Shown here: in pieces, positions 21,220 to 30,938 of the stretch
Layout: the number at the start of each line of letters is the position of its first letter
Numbering within the stretch: position 1 is the stretch's first letter
Origin: a virus
IMG/VR virus record: IMGVR_UViG_3300030107_000865
Coordinates: 2,204 to 36,272 of that record
DNA length: 34,069 bases
Strand: one strand, 5' to 3'
Notes under the pieces: generated by a model
Seen by the model: the letters and a program-made list of their open reading frames with translations, nothing else
What the model was told of the DNA's origin: nothing
Database searches by the model: none
Position numbers and translations under genes: made by a program

Positions 21220-23331
21220 ATGGAAGAAGATGAAATACTAGCAGACTCTGAACAATCAGCTGCAATAGATGATATAAAAGAAAATTCTTTAACAGATGAA
21301 CCTGTAGGAGAAATTGTTAGTTTTGTAAAAGGAAAATTTGAAAAGGCTGAAACAAATAGAAGAGGGGATGAAGAAAGGTGGATACAGGCTTACAGAAACT
21401 ATCGTGGTTTGTATAGCCCTGATGTACAGTTTACTTCTACGGAAAAATCTAAAGTATTTGTTAAAGTAACCAAGACTAAAGTTTTAGCTGCATACGGACA
21501 ACTTGTTGAAGTATTGTTTGGTGGTAATAAATTTCCACTAAGCATTGACCCTACAATACTTCCTGATGGTGTAGAAGATACAGTTAGTTTAGAAACTAAT
21601 TCACAGATAAAAGAAGCTAAAGAACAAACAGGAAGCACTCCTGATAAACTTCCTGAACTATTAGCAGGTGAAACTTTACCAGAGTTTAATGAAAGAGTAG
21701 GACCTTTATCAGAAAATCTAAACCCTGTAGAAGATAAAATAGAGTTTAAAAATACAGGAAGTCCTACATCTGTAAACTTTCACCCTGCAATGATTGCAGC
21801 GAAGAAGATGGAGAAGAAAATACACGACCAACTAGAAGAGTCGAATGCTAAGAAACAACTACGAGCCGCAGCCTTTGAAGCGGCTCTTTTTGGTACAGGC
21901 ATAATGAAAGGACCTTTTGCTGTAGACAAAGAGTATCCCAATTGGGATGATGAAGGTAACTACTCTCCTTTATTTAAAACAGTCCCCCAAACTTCTAATG
22001 TGTCTATCTGGAATTTTTATCCAGACCCTGATGCAAGTAATATGGAAGAAGCAGAATATGTTGTAGAAAGACATAAGATGTCTCGTTCTCAACTTCGTGC
22101 ATTAAAGAAAAGACCATTTTTTAGAAGTAATGCTATTGATAAATCTCTTAATGAGGGAGAGATGTATAATAAGGAATGGTGGGAACATGTAATGGAAGAC
22201 AACAATCACGAGGATAAAGCCGAAAGATTTGAAATTTTAGAGTTTTGGGGATTTGTTGATAGAGAAATAATAGAACAACATGATGTTGATATTCCAGAAG
22301 AGTTAGGAGATGTAGAACAAGTTAGTGTAAATATTTGGGTATGTAATAATAATGTACTTAGACTTGTTATGAATCCATTTACTCCTGCCTATTTACCGTA
22401 CTATGCTACCCCCTATGAAATGAATCCATACAGTATATTTGGTGTAGGTATTGCAGAAAACATGGACGATACACAAACACTAATGAATGGTTTTATGCGT
22501 ATGTCTGTGGATAATGCCGCACTATCAGGTAATCTTATTATAGAAGTAGATGAAACTAACTTAGTCCCCGGACAGGACTTGAGTGTATACCCCGGAAAAA
22601 TATTTAGAAGACAGGGCGGCGCTCCCGGTCAGGGTATCTTTGGTACAAAGTTTCCTAATGTGTCGAATGAAAACATGCAGATGTTTGATAAAGCACGAGT
22701 ATTAGCAGATGAGAGTACAGGGTTTCCTTCGTTTGCTCACGGACAGACTGGTGTAACAGGAGTAGGACGTACTGCTTCTGGCATTAGTATGTTGATGAGT
22801 GCCGCTAATAACTCTATAAGAAGTGTTATAAAAAATGTTGATGACTATTTACTAGGACCTTTAGGTAAAGCATTCTTTAGTTTTAATATGCAGTTTGACT
22901 TTGACCCAGAAATAAAGGGAGACCTAGAAGTAAAGGCACAGGGTACAGAAAGTCTTATGGCTAATGAGGTACGTAGCCAGAGACTAATGCAGTTTATGCA
23001 AACAGTATCTAATCCTGCTCTTGCTCCGTTTGCACGAATGGATTACATAGTTAGAGAGATAGCAAAGTCTATGGACTTAGACCCTGACAAAGTGGCTAAC
23101 TCTATGGGTCAGGCTGCAGTACAGGCTGAGATACTTAAAAAGTTTCAAGAGCAAAATCCACCTCCCCCTCCCCCACCCAATGAAGGTAGACCACCACAAG
23201 AGACAGAAGAAGTTCCTGCAGGTGGTCAAGTACAAGACACGCAAGGGTCAGGTGGAGCTACTATAGGTACAGGCTCAGTGCCAACACCTGATGAGCCGGG
23301 ATTTACTGGTAATCAGGGTACAATACAATGA
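21220..23331 (+). CDS. portal protein (P22-like)
   Basis: 703 aa, close in size to P22 gp1 (725 aa). KVFVKVTKTKVLAAYGQLVEVLFGGNKFP, the AFEAALFGTGIMKGP segment, NPYSIFGVGIAENMDDTQTLMNGFMRM and GRTASGISMLMSAANNSIRSVIKNVD are typical of this portal class. The C-terminus has seven consecutive prolines (residues 647-653) followed by a Gly/Glu/Gln-rich tail. It forms the dodecameric DNA gate. GAGGT stands before the ATG, and the stop overlaps the next start by 4 bases. Confidence 0.93.
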   Translation: MEEDEILADSEQSAAIDDIKENSLTDEPVGEIVSFVKGKFEKAETNRRGDEERWIQAYRNYRGLYSPDVQFTSTEKSKVFVKVTKTKVLAAYGQLVEVLFGGNKFPLSIDPTILPDGVEDTVSLETNSQIKEAKEQTGSTPDKLPELLAGETLPEFNERVGPLSENLNPVEDKIEFKNTGSPTSVNFHPAMIAAKKMEKKIHDQLEESNAKKQLRAAAFEAALFGTGIMKGPFAVDKEYPNWDDEGNYSPLFKTVPQTSNVSIWNFYPDPDASNMEEAEYVVERHKMSRSQLRALKKRPFFRSNAIDKSLNEGEMYNKEWWEHVMEDNNHEDKAERFEILEFWGFVDREIIEQHDVDIPEELGDVEQVSVNIWVCNNNVLRLVMNPFTPAYLPYYATPYEMNPYSIFGVGIAENMDDTQTLMNGFMRMSVDNAALSGNLIIEVDETNLVPGQDLSVYPGKIFRRQGGAPGQGIFGTKFPNVSNENMQMFDKARVLADESTGFPSFAHGQTGVTGVGRTASGISMLMSAANNSIRSVIKNVDDYLLGPLGKAFFSFNMQFDFDPEIKGDLEVKAQGTESLMANEVRSQRLMQFMQTVSNPALAPFARMDYIVREIAKSMDLDPDKVANSMGQAAVQAEILKKFQEQNPPPPPPPNEGRPPQETEEVPAGGQVQDTQGSGGATIGTGSVPTPDEPGFTGNQGTIQ

Positions 23332-23522
23332 ACCTAAAAAAATTAGTAAATGATAAAGTTTTGTGGGATAATTTTTTAGAATATCTTGATAATGTTATTG
23401 CAAAGAATCATACAGCACTAGAACAGTCGGACAATCATGTTGTTATCCATAGACTGCAGGGTGCAATAGGTGCGTTACGTAGGTTAAAATATCTTAGAGA
23501 AGAAATGAATGGAAACCAATAA
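23328..23522 (+). CDS. small helical protein after portal
   Basis: 64 aa, fully helical. It ends VVIHRLQGAIGALRRLKYLREEMNG, a block seen in small proteins that follow the portal gene in marine podoviruses. Function unknown. The ATG overlaps the portal stop (ATGA), and the end overlaps the giant gene by 14 bases. Confidence 0.65.
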   Translation: MNLKKLVNDKVLWDNFLEYLDNVIAKNHTALEQSDNHVVIHRLQGAIGALRRLKYLREEMNGNQ

Positions 23523-26500
23523 AGAAAAAAAACTTGATAATTTTGTATCAGAAGTACCAACTTCTAAATTAGATTTGGAAAGTTTAGGAGTTTCACTAGA
23601 TGAATTTGGTCAACCGTATGACGAAGACTTTCAAACTTCAGCAGTTTTTCAACCTTCTGAATTAGATGTTAAAAAAGGTTTACCCTCTGAACAATTCTAT
23701 AATTTAAAGTATCAGTATGATGTTGTTAAAGATAAAAATAATTATAATTATAATCTTAAAAAAGCAAATAGTTTTTTTGAAAATGAAAAAAATTTTTTAC
23801 GTTTAGAAACTGCAAATACAAAAAAGAATTTTTTAATAAAAGGTGGTTTAAGTGAGAATGATGCAAAAATAGCAGCTCATCAATATATTTTTACTGTTGA
23901 TTTTGCTCCTCATATTGCCGAAGCAATAGCTGTAGAAGATTTTAGAATAGCTAAAAAAGAAAAAGATAGGCTATCTATGTATCTTACTGGTGGAGCTTTA
24001 GGCTTATATTTAGCGACTAATCCTATTGTCCAAAGATTTGGTATTAATTTAGTAGGGGGTACTGTTAAAGGAATAACAAGAAATATTGATAATTTTGTAA
24101 AGTCTTATCAACGATATAAAATTGAAAAGGGAGGTGTTCCCACAGATAAAAATATATACATGTATGGACAAAAGATAGGAGAAGTAGATAATGGTATTGA
24201 AGATAAATTATTTGAAAAATTTAACGTAAATGAAGTTGTAAAACAAAATTTAAGTTTTATAAATAATCGTGTACCATTTCGTTATGAAGAAATGGGACTT
24301 GGAGGAATAAATACACTGAGTCAAACTATAAAAGGTTTACAAAATTACCCTAATTATGAATTACTAAGCACTCAGAAAATTATACCTCCTAGTTTATTAA
24401 AAAAACATTTAGAAAATTTACCTATAGATAATACGGCTATTTTAAATTCTGCAGGTTCTGAAAGAATATTTACAAATGATTTATTTTTTGAACTTTGGGA
24501 TAAAAAAATATTTAATGACATTGAAGGAAATGCAATAAGTAATAACCTATCAGACTCAGAATTATTACTTGCTATAGACGATAAACTAAAAGAGTATGGC
24601 AATGCCATTCTAAATGCTAAAGATGTTGGAGATGGTAATTGGAGATTTGAATTTAATAATAGAATAATACAAATTAGTGATAATTCAGTACCTGTTTATC
24701 CTAATGATGCTACATATAATAAACTTTCTGTTCCAGAAAAATTTTTAAAAAACGAAAATGATAAAATTTTTAATTTTATAAATAGACGACTACAAGAAAC
24801 TGATAAGACTACTACATCAACAAATATTGAAGTAGATGTTTTTGGAGGAGTATCTCCTCGTTCAGGCGATACAGGTAATTTTAGAATAAAAATGTCGAAC
24901 TTAGATAATATGAGTTCAACTGAACTAGCTGCGATTGATAATAAAGATTTTATAGTATTTCCCCCCAGACTCGATTATGACTATAATGAAATTCCTTATG
25001 ACGGTATGCAAACACAACTTAGTACTGGTTTAGTTCTTAAAGGTGGTAACGTAGAAGATGTTAAATCAGGTGTTATTGTTTTACGTTCTCCTGTTGATGA
25101 AGGCTCTAATATTCATATGTCAGATGGAAGAAAAACAGGAGCATTTAAGAATGAGACGTTTCTACAAGATGCTTTTGTTAGTTTAAAAAAAGTTTTAGAA
25201 GATAATCCTAATGTATTTGTAAAAGAACCTACCGTTAGAAATCTTTTATTTGCAACAGATAGAACTGCTAAAGAAGTAAGAGACCTTGGTGAAAATCTAA
25301 ATAAATTATTTTTAGAAAATCAAGTAGTTCAGATTATAAGTAACCCAAATAAAAAAAATTTACCAGAACATAAATTTTTAAAAAAATTAATTTCTATGGA
25401 GATGGAAGATAGTTTTGAATTTCAATTAGCTCAAGAACTTATAGAAAATAGTTTACGCAATTTTCCTACAAAAGATGTTTATAAAATAGCTATACCTACT
25501 AAGAAATTAAATTTTCCTTCTAATTTTAACAAGTTAACTGATGCAGAGCAACAACAATTTATTAACTCTAATCTTGAGTACATGACCTATGAGATGACAA
25601 GAGATGATGTTTCTAAGATATTTTTTTCTAATTATAATAAATTTGTAGACCCTAAAGATTCTTCCAATATAAAAGAATTTATAAGTAAAGATGATTTTAA
25701 TTCTTTTTATTCTGTTTATAATGTTTATGGAGACCAAACAAGAAAAGTAGGACCTAAGTTTGTTTCTGAAATTGATACTCATTTTGATTCTACCTCTATT
25801 GCACACACAAGATTTTTTATAAATGGAGATGAGGTAGTTATAGATGAAATACAATTTGATTTACTTAGAGGGCAGTTTAATAATTTTTATGAAGAGGGTT
25901 TAAATAGTTTACAGTTTACTCGTGCAGATGGTTCTATTGGATATCGTAATAATTTAAATGAAGAAATGTCAAAAAAAGCCGCAGAAAAATATGCTAATGA
26001 GTTTGCATCTGAAAAAATACTAAAGAGTACAGCTTTACCATTTAAAAATTCTTCTGATTTAATTCAACAAATTATGACTCCTTTAATTTTAAATGCTAAG
26101 AAAAATAATGCAAATTTTATTACACTTCCTAATATAGAAAACTTAGCTAATGTTAGAATATCAACAAAAGGTCAATCCATGACAACTTCTGATACTTCTA
26201 AAGGTTTAATAAATTTAACAGCATTAAAAGGAAAGATTTTAGATGACTTAAAAAAACAATTTCCAAATCAAAAAATTGAGTTTGAAAACAGTTTTCTTTT
26301 AGACAATCAATCTTTTAAAGATAAGTTGGAAATATTAAGAAGTAATAACTTTTATCGTGAAATTTTAAAAGGGGGTAATGTACCTGTTAATAAATTTGAT
26401 ATAGATGAACTAGAAATTTATGAAAGTTTTACTTATACTGGTATGCCTAGACATATGAAAGAACTTTACACTAAAGAGTTTGATAAGGGAATGGAAGAAT

Positions 26501-27129
26501 TAATTTTAAAAAGTAATGGCAAAATAAAATTAGATAAAAGTATTGTAGAATATACACACATACCTGCTAATTATATGAATCTTGCTCAATTAGATGAATT
26601 AGAAAGAGTTTTTAGTATTCACAAAAAAATAAAAACTTGGAAAGGAATAAATAATGCTCTTGATGGTAGAACTCCAGATAAAGTAGGGTTAAAAGAATTT
26701 GCTGACTATAATGCTATAAAAAATTATCCAGAAGACCCTGTAGTTTTAAAAAAGTTTGCCAACATGATTAAGTCTAAATTAGGTTTTAATGATACAAGTT
26801 TAACAGGTGGTTTGAGCTATGAGGATTCCGTTGTTAATTTAGAATTATTTTTAGACAAGGTTGGTATAGACAAGAAGTCATTTAAATATACTAATTCTAA
26901 TGATATAGATAAAATTGTTAATAATATACCTGATGAAAAATTTTTAGAGTTTTATAAGGTAACTGATGCAGAGTTAACAAACTTTGAAAATGTAATGAAG
27001 AATGGTATCACAGAAAAATACGAATCAAAAACAATAGATATAAGAAATATACTAGACGGTAGAAGACCAGAACAATTAAATAATACAAGAGTACTTACAA
27101 TGGCAGAAGGAGGATTAGTCAATGCTTGA
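23509..27129 (+). CDS. giant virion-associated protein with polyvalent-protein-like EIQxD domain
   Basis: 1206 aa. One possible membrane helix lies at about 155-175. The most informative part is 765-985: IAHTRFFINGDEVVIDEIQFD (D779-D784), then ALPFKN (842-847) and a helix ending ANFITLPN, then GMPRHMKELYTKEFDKG (about 978-994). This order matches the EEIQSDWHQ / PF(K/R) / MxxFYDKxLP domain in large polyvalent proteins that phages and conjugative elements inject with DNA. The C-terminus carries MAEGGLVNA. It sits between portal and scaffold, where ejection proteins are common. The gene is much more AT-rich than its neighbours. Confidence 0.6.
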   Translation: METNKEKKLDNFVSEVPTSKLDLESLGVSLDEFGQPYDEDFQTSAVFQPSELDVKKGLPSEQFYNLKYQYDVVKDKNNYNYNLKKANSFFENEKNFLRLETANTKKNFLIKGGLSENDAKIAAHQYIFTVDFAPHIAEAIAVEDFRIAKKEKDRLSMYLTGGALGLYLATNPIVQRFGINLVGGTVKGITRNIDNFVKSYQRYKIEKGGVPTDKNIYMYGQKIGEVDNGIEDKLFEKFNVNEVVKQNLSFINNRVPFRYEEMGLGGINTLSQTIKGLQNYPNYELLSTQKIIPPSLLKKHLENLPIDNTAILNSAGSERIFTNDLFFELWDKKIFNDIEGNAISNNLSDSELLLAIDDKLKEYGNAILNAKDVGDGNWRFEFNNRIIQISDNSVPVYPNDATYNKLSVPEKFLKNENDKIFNFINRRLQETDKTTTSTNIEVDVFGGVSPRSGDTGNFRIKMSNLDNMSSTELAAIDNKDFIVFPPRLDYDYNEIPYDGMQTQLSTGLVLKGGNVEDVKSGVIVLRSPVDEGSNIHMSDGRKTGAFKNETFLQDAFVSLKKVLEDNPNVFVKEPTVRNLLFATDRTAKEVRDLGENLNKLFLENQVVQIISNPNKKNLPEHKFLKKLISMEMEDSFEFQLAQELIENSLRNFPTKDVYKIAIPTKKLNFPSNFNKLTDAEQQQFINSNLEYMTYEMTRDDVSKIFFSNYNKFVDPKDSSNIKEFISKDDFNSFYSVYNVYGDQTRKVGPKFVSEIDTHFDSTSIAHTRFFINGDEVVIDEIQFDLLRGQFNNFYEEGLNSLQFTRADGSIGYRNNLNEEMSKKAAEKYANEFASEKILKSTALPFKNSSDLIQQIMTPLILNAKKNNANFITLPNIENLANVRISTKGQSMTTSDTSKGLINLTALKGKILDDLKKQFPNQKIEFENSFLLDNQSFKDKLEILRSNNFYREILKGGNVPVNKFDIDELEIYESFTYTGMPRHMKELYTKEFDKGMEELILKSNGKIKLDKSIVEYTHIPANYMNLAQLDELERVFSIHKKIKTWKGINNALDGRTPDKVGLKEFADYNAIKNYPEDPVVLKKFANMIKSKLGFNDTSLTGGLSYEDSVVNLELFLDKVGIDKKSFKYTNSNDIDKIVNNIPDEKFLEFYKVTDAELTNFENVMKNGITEKYESKTIDIRNILDGRRPEQLNNTRVLTMAEGGLVNA

Positions 27130-28696
27130 GGAACAGATGGAACTATTTGGAGAACAAGGGGGGTTAAAAGATGATGGAATGAATCAAGACCCTGTAAGTG
27201 GTAATGAAGTACCTTCTGGCTCAATGGCTAAGGAAGTAAGAGATGATATACCTGCACAGTTAAGTGATGGAGAATATGTAGTTCCTGCTGATGTTGTTAG
27301 ATTTTTTGGGGTAAAGTTTTTTGAAGACTTACGTATGCAAGCAAAACAAGGTCTTGCAGATATGGAACAGGATGGACGAATAGGAGGAGAACCTATTGCT
27401 AGGGTAGCTAGACTAGAAGTACAGGGAGGTGCAGAAGAACTAGACCCTGAAGATGAAAAGAAGATAAGAGAAATGATGCAGGTTAATAGGGGTGGTGTAA
27501 TACATGCAGCTGAAGGTATACTTACAGAGTCTGATATACAGGCTGATGCTGTGGCTAAATCTGCTAATCCACTTGGAGACTATGGATTTGTTGGAGGTAG
27601 TTTAGGTTTTCCATCACGAGCCGTACCAACACAGAAAACATTTTATCATCCAGATGGTAGGACTTATGTTGTGCGTTACAATGCTGATGGTTCTTTAGTT
27701 AATCCTAATGATGCAATGTACACAGAGTCACCGTGGTCAGAAACTCCTCCTAACGTACAAGAAGTAACGACAGGCACAGGAGGTGGTGGATTTGATGATA
27801 GGGAAGAGTCTTCTAATAGAGAAAGAAAGTCTTCTGTATCACAGACTACTCAAGCATTTACTGATATGGAAAAAGCAAGAGTTGATGCAAATAAAGCTGT
27901 AGAAAATTCTTATAAACGCTTAATGAAAAATAATAAAAATTTAAAGTTAAGTGAAAATGAGTATAGAAATTTACCACTGTCTGCAAAGATTGGGTTGATT
28001 CCTGCAGAACTTGGTCTTAATGTAAAAGATGCAGATATTAATAAGATAATAGCTAATGCTAATAATCCCTCAGGATTAAGTAAATTAATATCAGCTTTAG
28101 GTGGTGGAGTAGTTGGTGCAGTAGCCAATGCAGCTAAACAAATATTTAAAGGTATTGGAAAAAAGTTAGACTTTGAAAGTGCTAACCGAACAGTTCAACA
28201 AGTAATAGATTCTGACTCAGATGGTCTAATGAATAGAGTGGACAGATTCTTGTTGGGTATCAGAAAAGATAATAAAATACAAACTCCACGAGGTCCTGTT
28301 GATATTAACTCTTCAGAGGGTAAAGCAGCAATAGGAAGAATAGAAGAGAACAGAAAAAGAGTTAGAGATAATGCTCTAAAAACTCATTTAAAAGAAGTTG
28401 AGAATTTACAAGTTGACCTTACAAGAGCAGAAGAGTCAGCAGGTCAAGGTGATTTAGATACTGTAGCACAGAATGAAGCCTTTGACCAACAGATGCGAGA
28501 AGCTGAAGCTATAGCAAGAGGACCATCCAGAAGTAGTGGTGGAGGAGGAAATGTAATGGGAGGTGGTTATACTGCTCCAAGTAACATACCAAATTTTCCT
28601 GATTTCTATGTAGGTGGATTAGCATCTAAACCCAAGGCTAAAGCAAAACGAAAAAAGAATACTAAAGGATTAGGCACTAAACCTAAGGCTACTTGA
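27122..28696 (+). CDS. conserved internal virion protein (marine phage type)
   Basis: 524 aa. Residues about 13-72 (GGLKDDGMNQDPVSGNEVP, then DDIPAQLSDGEYVVPADVVRFFGVKFFEDLR) form a block I know from many marine phage contigs, usually in a large structural protein. RGGVIHAAEG and VGGSLG follow. The middle is helical with a small Gly/Ala-rich hydrophobic patch (ALGGGVVGAVANAA), and the C-terminus is basic (KPKAKAKRKKNTKG). It may be ejected with DNA or act as a tail or internal core protein. It overlaps the giant gene by 8 bases. Confidence 0.65.
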   Translation: MLEEQMELFGEQGGLKDDGMNQDPVSGNEVPSGSMAKEVRDDIPAQLSDGEYVVPADVVRFFGVKFFEDLRMQAKQGLADMEQDGRIGGEPIARVARLEVQGGAEELDPEDEKKIREMMQVNRGGVIHAAEGILTESDIQADAVAKSANPLGDYGFVGGSLGFPSRAVPTQKTFYHPDGRTYVVRYNADGSLVNPNDAMYTESPWSETPPNVQEVTTGTGGGGFDDREESSNRERKSSVSQTTQAFTDMEKARVDANKAVENSYKRLMKNNKNLKLSENEYRNLPLSAKIGLIPAELGLNVKDADINKIIANANNPSGLSKLISALGGGVVGAVANAAKQIFKGIGKKLDFESANRTVQQVIDSDSDGLMNRVDRFLLGIRKDNKIQTPRGPVDINSSEGKAAIGRIEENRKRVRDNALKTHLKEVENLQVDLTRAEESAGQGDLDTVAQNEAFDQQMREAEAIARGPSRSSGGGGNVMGGGYTAPSNIPNFPDFYVGGLASKPKAKAKRKKNTKGLGTKPKAT

Positions 28697-28729: not shown

Positions 28730-29632
28730 ATGCCAGAATTAGAAACAGTAGAACCACAGAAGACTGCAGGATTTGTAAGTCGGTCTCGTTCAAAGTACAA
28801 GGACAAGATTGCTAAGGACGAGCAGGAACTCAAAGAACTCCTTGCCCAGAGGGAAGGAGAAGGGGTTCAAGAGAACTCTGAGGAGAGCCAAGATGTATCT
28901 CCTCCTGAAGAAGAAAAGGAAGCAGAGATATCTGATGAGACTCTCAGCAAGGAGGAAAAATCTTTCAAGACGAGATATGGGGATGTTCGAAGACATCTTG
29001 CGACTAAGGAGAAAGAGTATAACGCTAGAATAAAAGAGTTAGAGGATAAACTATCTGATACTAAAAAGCTTGTACCACCTAAGTCTGATGAGGATATTGC
29101 GTCTTGGGCAGAGAAATATCCTGATGTTGCAGGTATTGTAGAAACAATAGCCGAGAAAAAAGCTAAACAAATGTTTGATAAGGCTAATATTCAGATAGAG
29201 GAACTTAGCAAAGCTCGGCAGGAAACAACTCGTAGGACAGCCGAAAACGAAATTAAAGAGGTACACAAGGACTTTGACAATTTGCGTGACTCCGATGATT
29301 TTCATGAGTGGGTAGAAGAGCAACCTAAGTGGGTACAAAATGCTCTCTATGAGAATACAGATGATGCCAAGTCTGTTATTCGTGTTATTGATTTATACAA
29401 AATAGATAAAGGTTTAACAGCAGGTGACAAAAAGAATAAGAGAAAAGCTGCGGCCTCTCTTGTAAACAAAACATCTAAGACGGAAGTAGATGCTGAGGAA
29501 TTAGCAGATACTATAAAGGAATCTGATGTAGAGAAAATGAGTAATGCCGATTATGCTCGGAATGCTGAAAAAATAAACACAGCAATCCGTTCTGGTAAAT
29601 TTATTTACGATGTATCAGGAAATAGAAGATAA
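28730..29632 (+). CDS. scaffolding protein
   Basis: 300 aa, highly charged and mostly helical, with a long Glu-rich stretch (about 45-75), EKSFKTRYGDVRRHLATKEKEYNARIKELEDKL coiled coil (about 76-108) and PPKSDEDIASWAEKYPDVAGIVETIAEKKAKQM. This layout, directly before the major capsid gene, is typical of podovirus scaffolds, which guide procapsid assembly and then leave. AGGAG precedes the ATG. Confidence 0.85.
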   Translation: MPELETVEPQKTAGFVSRSRSKYKDKIAKDEQELKELLAQREGEGVQENSEESQDVSPPEEEKEAEISDETLSKEEKSFKTRYGDVRRHLATKEKEYNARIKELEDKLSDTKKLVPPKSDEDIASWAEKYPDVAGIVETIAEKKAKQMFDKANIQIEELSKARQETTRRTAENEIKEVHKDFDNLRDSDDFHEWVEEQPKWVQNALYENTDDAKSVIRVIDLYKIDKGLTAGDKKNKRKAAASLVNKTSKTEVDAEELADTIKESDVEKMSNADYARNAEKINTAIRSGKFIYDVSGNRR

Positions 29633-29867: not shown

Positions 29868-30938
29868 ATGGCTTTTCAAACAACGTCAGGTTATGGCAAT
29901 TTACCTAACGGTAATTTTTCGCCAATAATCTACTCGAAACAGGTACAGCTTGCGTTTCGAAAATCGACTGTTGTGGGCGATATTACTAATTCTGACTACT
30001 TTGGGGAAATTGCTAACCAAGGTGATACAGTTCGAATTATTAAAGAGCCTGAAATTTCAGTCAAAGAGTACGCAAGAGGTACACAGGTAACTGCACAGGA
30101 TTTGGATGACGAGGACTTCCAACTTGTCGTTGATAAAGCAAACTACTATGCTTTTAAAATGGACGATATTGAGGAAGCTCACAGTCATGTGAATTTTATG
30201 CAACTCGCAACTGACCGAGCTGCTTATAGACTTGCTGACCAGTATGACCAAGAAGTTCTTGGTTATCTAGCAGGATACAAGCAGTCTGCATTAAGTTCTG
30301 CAGCAGGTGCTGTTAATGACCAAGTTAACGGCTCTAAAGCAGTAAGCACTGCAGGGTCTGACGAACTTCTTACTTCTATGAAGTTGAGAAAGGACTCTTT
30401 TGCGAGTATCACAACTTCGTCTGCAGGAGACCACTCAATTCCTGTTGCAAACCTAGCTCCGGGTGCAACTGCTGTTTCTACAGCTGCTGTTACTCCAATG
30501 GTAATCATCAACAGAATGGCTAGACTGTTGAATCAACAACAAGTTGACTCACAGGATAGATGGTTGGTTGTTGACCCAGTATTCATGGAGTTACTCGGTG
30601 ATGAAAACTCTAAGTTGGTAAACGCTGACTTCAACGCAGCTGAACTTAAAAATGGTCTTGCCCTAACTAACTTGGCAGGTTTTAGACTATACGTGTCTAG
30701 CAACCTACCTTCTGTAGGAACAGGTCCTGGAACATCAGGAAGTGCAAACCAAAATAGTAACTATGGTGCTATTGTTGCAGGTCATGGTTCTGCTGTTGCG
30801 ACTGCTGAACAACTTAGCAAAACTGAAACTTACCGTGACCCTGACAGCTTTGCTGACATTGTTCGTGGTATGCACCTATATGGCAGAAAGATACTTCGAC
30901 CAGAAGCTATCGTGACTGCTAAATATAACGCAGCGTAA
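29868..30938 (+). CDS. major capsid protein
   Basis: 356 aa. GDTVRIIKEPEISVKEYARGTQVTAQDLDDEDFQLVVDKANYYAFKMDDIEEAHSH is the characteristic N-arm/E-loop region of a P22-like/HK97-fold coat family. It is followed by helix NFMQLATDRAAYRLADQYDQEVL and a C-terminal domain with DRWLVVDPVFMELL and FADIVRGMHLYGRKI. It builds the icosahedral shell. It has its own promoter and a perfect AGGAGG ribosome site, as expected for the most abundant virion protein. Confidence 0.92.
   Translation: MAFQTTSGYGNLPNGNFSPIIYSKQVQLAFRKSTVVGDITNSDYFGEIANQGDTVRIIKEPEISVKEYARGTQVTAQDLDDEDFQLVVDKANYYAFKMDDIEEAHSHVNFMQLATDRAAYRLADQYDQEVLGYLAGYKQSALSSAAGAVNDQVNGSKAVSTAGSDELLTSMKLRKDSFASITTSSAGDHSIPVANLAPGATAVSTAAVTPMVIINRMARLLNQQQVDSQDRWLVVDPVFMELLGDENSKLVNADFNAAELKNGLALTNLAGFRLYVSSNLPSVGTGPGTSGSANQNSNYGAIVAGHGSAVATAEQLSKTETYRDPDSFADIVRGMHLYGRKILRPEAIVTAKYNAA

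Follow-up and report, generated by a model that had tools for sequence, protein, structure and literature searches.

Comparison with Described Systems

Polyvalent proteins, known from phages and conjugative elements, are thought to be injected (Iyer et al., 2017, PMC5512222). They are very large, are encoded beside virion genes and, as a set, mix wall hydrolases, zincin-like motifs and LPD-type domains. The protein examined here (hereafter the target) is encoded at positions 23509-27129 of a 34,069-nucleotide stretch of DNA, the window, which comprises most of a 36,272-base IMG/VR record. Like polyvalent proteins, it contains a characteristic domain, recognised through a chain of EEIQSD-type profiles, and is encoded among virion genes, between the portal gene and a scaffold-position gene in all loci read. 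It differs from them in having one recognisable domain only, and the place that it occupies (the slot) differs in that a variable part, the cargo, is clipped at a fixed joint before or beside a single conserved core protein specific to this head module and is exchanged between close relatives. Proteins with the canonical EEIQSDWHQ domain share with the target a common order of blocks (H-x-R, E-x-Q-x-D, proline/helix/strand, then [FI]Y..K), but the target reads DEIQFD and has no demonstrable upstream FYS domain. LPD23 (PF18838), which is present in other cargos of the slot, is a different domain and is absent from the target.

The T7 proteins gp14, gp15 and gp16 and the N4 virion RNA polymerase are large inner-virion proteins whose entry into the cell accompanies or precedes that of the DNA. 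The analogy proposed with the target is one of role only, as no sequence match to these proteins was found in PDB, Pfam or PHROGs.

Phages of the HMO-2011 type have been described as dominant and widespread in the ocean (PMC9038755), and their head module is also found with other replication genes (PMC8528129). Two papers on these phages stress conservation of the module, one of them remarking on 'very few insertions and deletions' within it; the slot is not mentioned in the searched text of the genome papers, and protein delivery by these phages is not discussed in the searchable portion of the literature.

The target is best explained, with a probability of about 0.6, as a standalone protein of polyvalent type that is packaged in the head as the cargo of a swappable slot, leaves with the DNA and acts in the host. 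The core, adjoining the cargo or C-terminal to it when fused, would most likely place it in the head near the portal, from where it would exit with the DNA and reach its site of action, the host envelope or cytoplasm, its divergent EEIQSD domain probably acting on a host factor. Counted against this explanation are the single recognisable domain, the existence of loci lacking cargo and the absence of a significant fold match.

Genomic Setting and Evolutionary Rates

The portal and coat proteins of the window are 62-72% and 70-73% identical, respectively, to those of HMO-2011, CRP-9 and CRP-13. On these identities the window was assigned to the HMO-2011-type podophage head module, whose gene order it shares. 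The genes concerned are as follows.

21220-23331, + strand: portal protein, 703 aa, SU10/HMO-2011 type (Pfam SU10_portal, 5.6e-27; phrog_332, 6e-82)
23328-23522, + strand: conserved 64-aa ORF ahead of the slot, most loci having a relative in that position
23509-27129, + strand: target, standalone cargo protein, 1206 aa, intact from ATG to TGA
27122-28696, + strand: slot core protein, 524 aa, conserved at every locus carrying this head module
28730-29632, + strand: scaffold-position gene, 300 aa (phrog_13678, function unknown, 3.7e-46), conserved between slot and coat
29868-30938, + strand: major capsid protein (phrog_267, 7.8e-62)

The start of the target is overlapped by the 64-aa ORF (14 bases) and its end by the core ORF (8 bases), and the end-to-start overlaps from the portal gene through to the core ORF indicate that the set is probably translated in a coupled manner. 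The position between the portal and scaffold-position genes, with overlapping frames, argues for a packaged cargo. A first-pass annotation had placed the target between portal and scaffold as a single lone gene; the ORF directly downstream is the core, beyond which lies the gene whose product would, by its position, be the scaffold, and the target is half of a cargo-plus-core pair rather than a lone gene. The 64-aa ORF is conserved in most loci (160 profile hits).

The reading frame itself is genuine: it is intact, its homologs extend down to approximately 22% identity, and its family comprises some 14 distinct sequences from viral contigs. The dN/dS of the target against its nearest distinct relative is 0.46 (0.36 for residues 1-560 and 0.66 for residues 740-1206), indicating a maintained gene, compared with 0.20 for the core, 0.07 for the portal and 0.09 for the coat (versus the L003 copy). 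The target is thus far less constrained than its neighbours, as expected for a host-facing protein, and this difference from portal and coat is a further argument for the packaged cargo. The possible membrane helix of the earlier annotation was not substantiated: at about residues 155-175, mean Kyte-Doolittle hydropathy reaches 0.96 over 19 residues against a usual cut-off of about 1.6, and relatives peak at 1.0-1.5.

Architecture of the Slot and the Cargo-Core Joint

The slot consists of a conserved core (DPVSGNEVP..EVRDDIPAQLSEGEYVVPADVVR; N-terminus of the window core ORF, MLEEQMELFGEQGGLKDDGMNQDPVSGNEVPSGSMAKEVRDDIPAQLSDGEYVVPADVVRFFG) behind a hypervariable cargo of 0 to approximately 1600 aa. 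Across the group the core sits between the portal and scaffold-position genes, and in most members it carries the cargo as a large variable N-terminal extension, the target and its own family being separate ORFs. Extensions are found in CRP-13 gp55 (1208 aa, core motif near residue 510), CRP-9 gp54 (1395 aa, core motif near residue 877) and CRP-3 gp36 (1292 aa), while HMO-2011 gp49 starts directly with the core. As cultured CRP-3, CRP-9 and CRP-13 have cargo and HMO-2011 has none, packaging and ejection are directly testable.

A tblastn search of a 50,697-record phage collection with the core returned 14 records, namely CRP-series Roseobacter phages, HMO-2011 (two records) and one metagenomic phage. 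When metagenomic contigs were picked on the core motif and nothing else, no such portal was found within 9 kb in 27 of them, so the core may be distributed more widely than the group. Core homologs were also seen in four genomes assembled from metagenomes and labelled 'bacterial' or 'archaeal' (L305, L306, L307 and L308), on contigs that are most likely misbinned phage sequence or prophages. Past residue ~130 the core protein itself varies between loci in both length and sequence. Stacked cargos, in which a standalone target-family protein precedes a core ORF that bears another N-terminal extension unrelated to it, were observed at L218 (7221-12860) and L023 (3150-9484).

The prevalence of fusion bears on the alternative that the cargo is a late non-virion protein, made and active in the infected cell (for example against superinfection or in lysis) and sharing no more than an operon with the head genes. 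Such a role would agree with the occurrence of cargo as a separate ORF, but most cargos are fused to the core, and the core lies within the head module wherever the neighbourhood is readable around this portal type, making the alternative improbable.

The joint between cargo and core is marked by the following elements in the window.

27100-27126, + strand: C-terminal MAEGGLVNA of the target, the cargo-core joint, a motif common to family ends and fused joints
27107-27113, + strand: AAGGAGG, Shine-Dalgarno-like, 8 nt before the core ATG and inside the E-G-G codons of the cargo

Where the two are fused, F[AN][EKQ]GG closes the extension and is separated by a few residues from M..QM, after which comes the core; cargo ORFs of the target family terminate in [ML]A[EKQ]GG[LF].., with the start of the core ORF at the joint Met. 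AAGGAGG precedes the internal Met at 30 of 69 fused joints, against 8 of the 917 remaining Gly-Gly sites of these proteins, these counts coming from related sequences and hence not being independent, which suggests that fused genes could also make free core. The idea that the E/K/Q-Gly-Gly joint is a universal Shine-Dalgarno sequence was borne out in part, most other joints reading AAGGTGG or similar. It is tentatively proposed, with the odds against it, that the core is a loading dock, an addressing module with which an abundant group of marine phages packages and ejects interchangeable, otherwise unrelated cargos whether fused or separate, with free core also being produced from fused genes through an internal start encoded by the E/K/Q-Gly-Gly joint.

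Cargo Exchange and Cargo Contents

Total cargo length at 76 distinct loci ranged from 0 to 1621 aa, the cargo being fused to the core at 51, split at 11, present in both forms at 9 and absent at 5 (core only). Cargo similarity was undetectable in 265 of 466 pairs with portals 80-90% identical and in 24 of 79 pairs with portals more than 90% identical, the core being recognised in every pair. Cargos are therefore exchanged around a fixed core, which again argues for a packaged cargo. In a separate sample of 111 loci selected by the core motif (five loci cut at the 5' end having been left aside from the first count), 72 had cargo and 39 the core only; with approximately one third of core loci lacking it, cargo is dispensable for the group.

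LPD23 was matched in 11 of 56 scanned cargo sequences, which also gave matches to NlpC/P60, CHAP, Hydrolase_2, LysM, methyltransferase and putative metallopeptidase families; among PHROG matches, endolysins and a tail lysozyme family were the commonest. HExxH was present in 24 of the 71 loci that bear cargo, and one cargo (L074) contains LPD23, NlpC/P60 and SprT-like domains in a single chain. This mixture of LPD23, hydrolases, LysM and HExxH resembles the polyvalent repertoire described in PMC5512222 and supports the same explanation of the target. The target itself has neither a recognisable wall hydrolase nor HExxH, and shows one recognisable domain where sister cargos may carry several in one chain. 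PADLOC returned one weak match among the 56 cargos and none for the target. The slot thus offers a source of candidate injected effectors that can be picked by position instead of similarity. Genes annotated with methyltransferase domains were also seen elsewhere beside the same head genes, at different places in CRP-13 (L085, 13872-14567) and CRP-9 (L088, 16865-17398).

The frequency of peptidoglycan hydrolases among sister cargos, the portal-adjacent place and the single conserved core would suit a mechanical function, in which cargo and core would both belong to the inner virion and form or open a route across the cell envelope, as the T7 internal core proteins do, their domains serving wall breaching or assembly and not host takeover. 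Complete turnover of cargo while portal and coat stay alike, and loci with the core only, would be odd for an essential channel, and the target combines low constraint with the lack of a recognisable hydrolase, so that this alternative is regarded as doubtful. A cargo that is packaged and acts in the host remains the preferred explanation.

Homology of the C-Terminal Region to the EEIQSDWHQ Domain

The regions of the target considered below are as follows.

24301-25098, + strand: residues 265-530, the most conserved N-terminal part of the family, with many invariant columns
25771-27126, + strand: residues ~755-1206, divergent EEIQSD-type domain (profile-profile comparison with controls) and C-terminal tail
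25804-25860, + strand: H766-x-R768 ... E780-I-Q782-F-D784 motif, invariant in the target family
26038-26157, + strand: P844-R883 block (LPFK ... LILNAKKNNANFITLPNIENLANVR), aligned to a slot EELQSD block
26446-26520, + strand: residues 980-1004 block (PRHMKELYTKEFDKGMEELILKSNG), family-conserved and in register with the slot EELQSD profile

No significant match came from searching the phage collection, PDB, Pfam and PHROGs with the target as a single sequence; a profile search of PDB with the target gave no match, and no Pfam family was hit at E values up to 1. Residues 265-530 match nothing in Pfam, PHROG or PDB, and the statement of the first-pass annotation that residues 1 to ~750 lack known relatives likewise holds against the families of all three. 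The motifs that it had listed were confirmed in position and order (DEIQFD at 779-784, LPFK at 843-846 and MPRHMKELY at 979-987), as was the divergent relationship to the EEIQSDWHQ domain, which the profile comparisons and controls described here bear out by way of intermediates.

The target family keeps H-x-R...E[IL]Q.D, the proline block and an [IF]Y...FD block, with H766, R768, E780, Q782 and D784 invariant and P844, I871, P874 and R883 invariant or nearly so. An EELQSD version of the domain with the same invariant residues is present in ten slot cargos, to whose PPI ... LIAKA..GVDKIVIPP...IA.AR the P844-R883 block aligns, and the residues 980-1004 block was matched by eye to GGEGMKGFYDKILP of the canonical family. 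The iterated target profile reached the slot EELQSD proteins with E values as low as about 1e-43. The EELQSD profile, after iteration, recovered all 120 contigs with the canonical domain. In profile-profile comparisons the target domain matched slot EELQSD at 98.8% (E 8e-17) and canonical EEIQSDWHQ at 92% (7e-7), and slot EELQSD matched canonical EEIQSDWHQ at 97.5% (5e-12), while reversed or column-shuffled control profiles gave at most 0.2%. The best local alignments covered the later blocks for target versus slot and the motif block for slot versus canonical, so that homology across the whole domain rests on the profile chain. Judged by these sequence comparisons, the target domain is homologous to the EEIQSDWHQ domain through intermediates, and this homology, with its controls, is a further argument for a packaged cargo.

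Convergence on a short motif, which would make the target an unrelated structural protein, has in its favour the lack of a Pfam match and the weakness of the window sequence taken by itself, which an HMM built from slot EELQSD sequences only detected at E 1.2e-4. The same HMM matched distant members of the family at 1e-7 to 1e-18, and these values, together with the gap between the profile-profile scores and their controls and the agreement in predicted strand/helix order, render convergence highly improbable. All 110 of 110 non-canonical domain hits fell within the portal-scaffold slot, a tight association that also supports packaging but is biased as a frequency, the query profiles having come from slot proteins.

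The link to polyvalent proteins made in the earlier annotation therefore stands as regards an EEIQSD-type domain, but the target matches no named LPD model in Pfam; LPD23 (PF18838) as the identity of its domain was ruled out, the Pfam model being unmatched. An FYS domain in the N-terminal region of the target was not accepted (hhalign 4-25%), whereas sister slot cargos do have one (hhalign 97.8%).

Structure Prediction and the Canonical Domain

A model of target residues 240-1040 was of middling confidence (pLDDT 65), and one of the canonical EEIQSD domain was good (pLDDT 88). The canonical model comprises paired strands bearing AH.R and EEIQ, a coiled-coil insert, a helix, a strand, further helices and a final strand pair. 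The strand/helix order around the motifs agrees between the two models; fold searches with the target model gave no significant match.

With the canonical model, Foldseek found no PDB match at E 0.001. The top 50 PDB matches included 19 GNAT-fold chains, as classified by us from the named entries, the best being SpNatD (E 0.035) and TM-scores for the GNAT-fold matches being 0.2-0.3. This predicted resemblance is treated as a lead only, under which the EEIQSD domain might perhaps be an enzyme with an acetyltransferase-like fold; a Q..G.G-like loop, as used for acetyl-CoA binding, was looked for in the target and none was seen.

The canonical domain is widespread, occurring in 120 viral contigs (L093-L212) in proteins that reach 4046 aa as read. 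It is unnamed in Pfam, three examples having no Pfam domain model over it, and gains here a predicted structure and a genomic setting. Large proteins with the canonical domain contained ART-PolyVal in 3 of 44 cases and LPD39 in 2 of 44, and the domain is also included in phrog_7348 (2564 aa), which is labelled as an endolysin.
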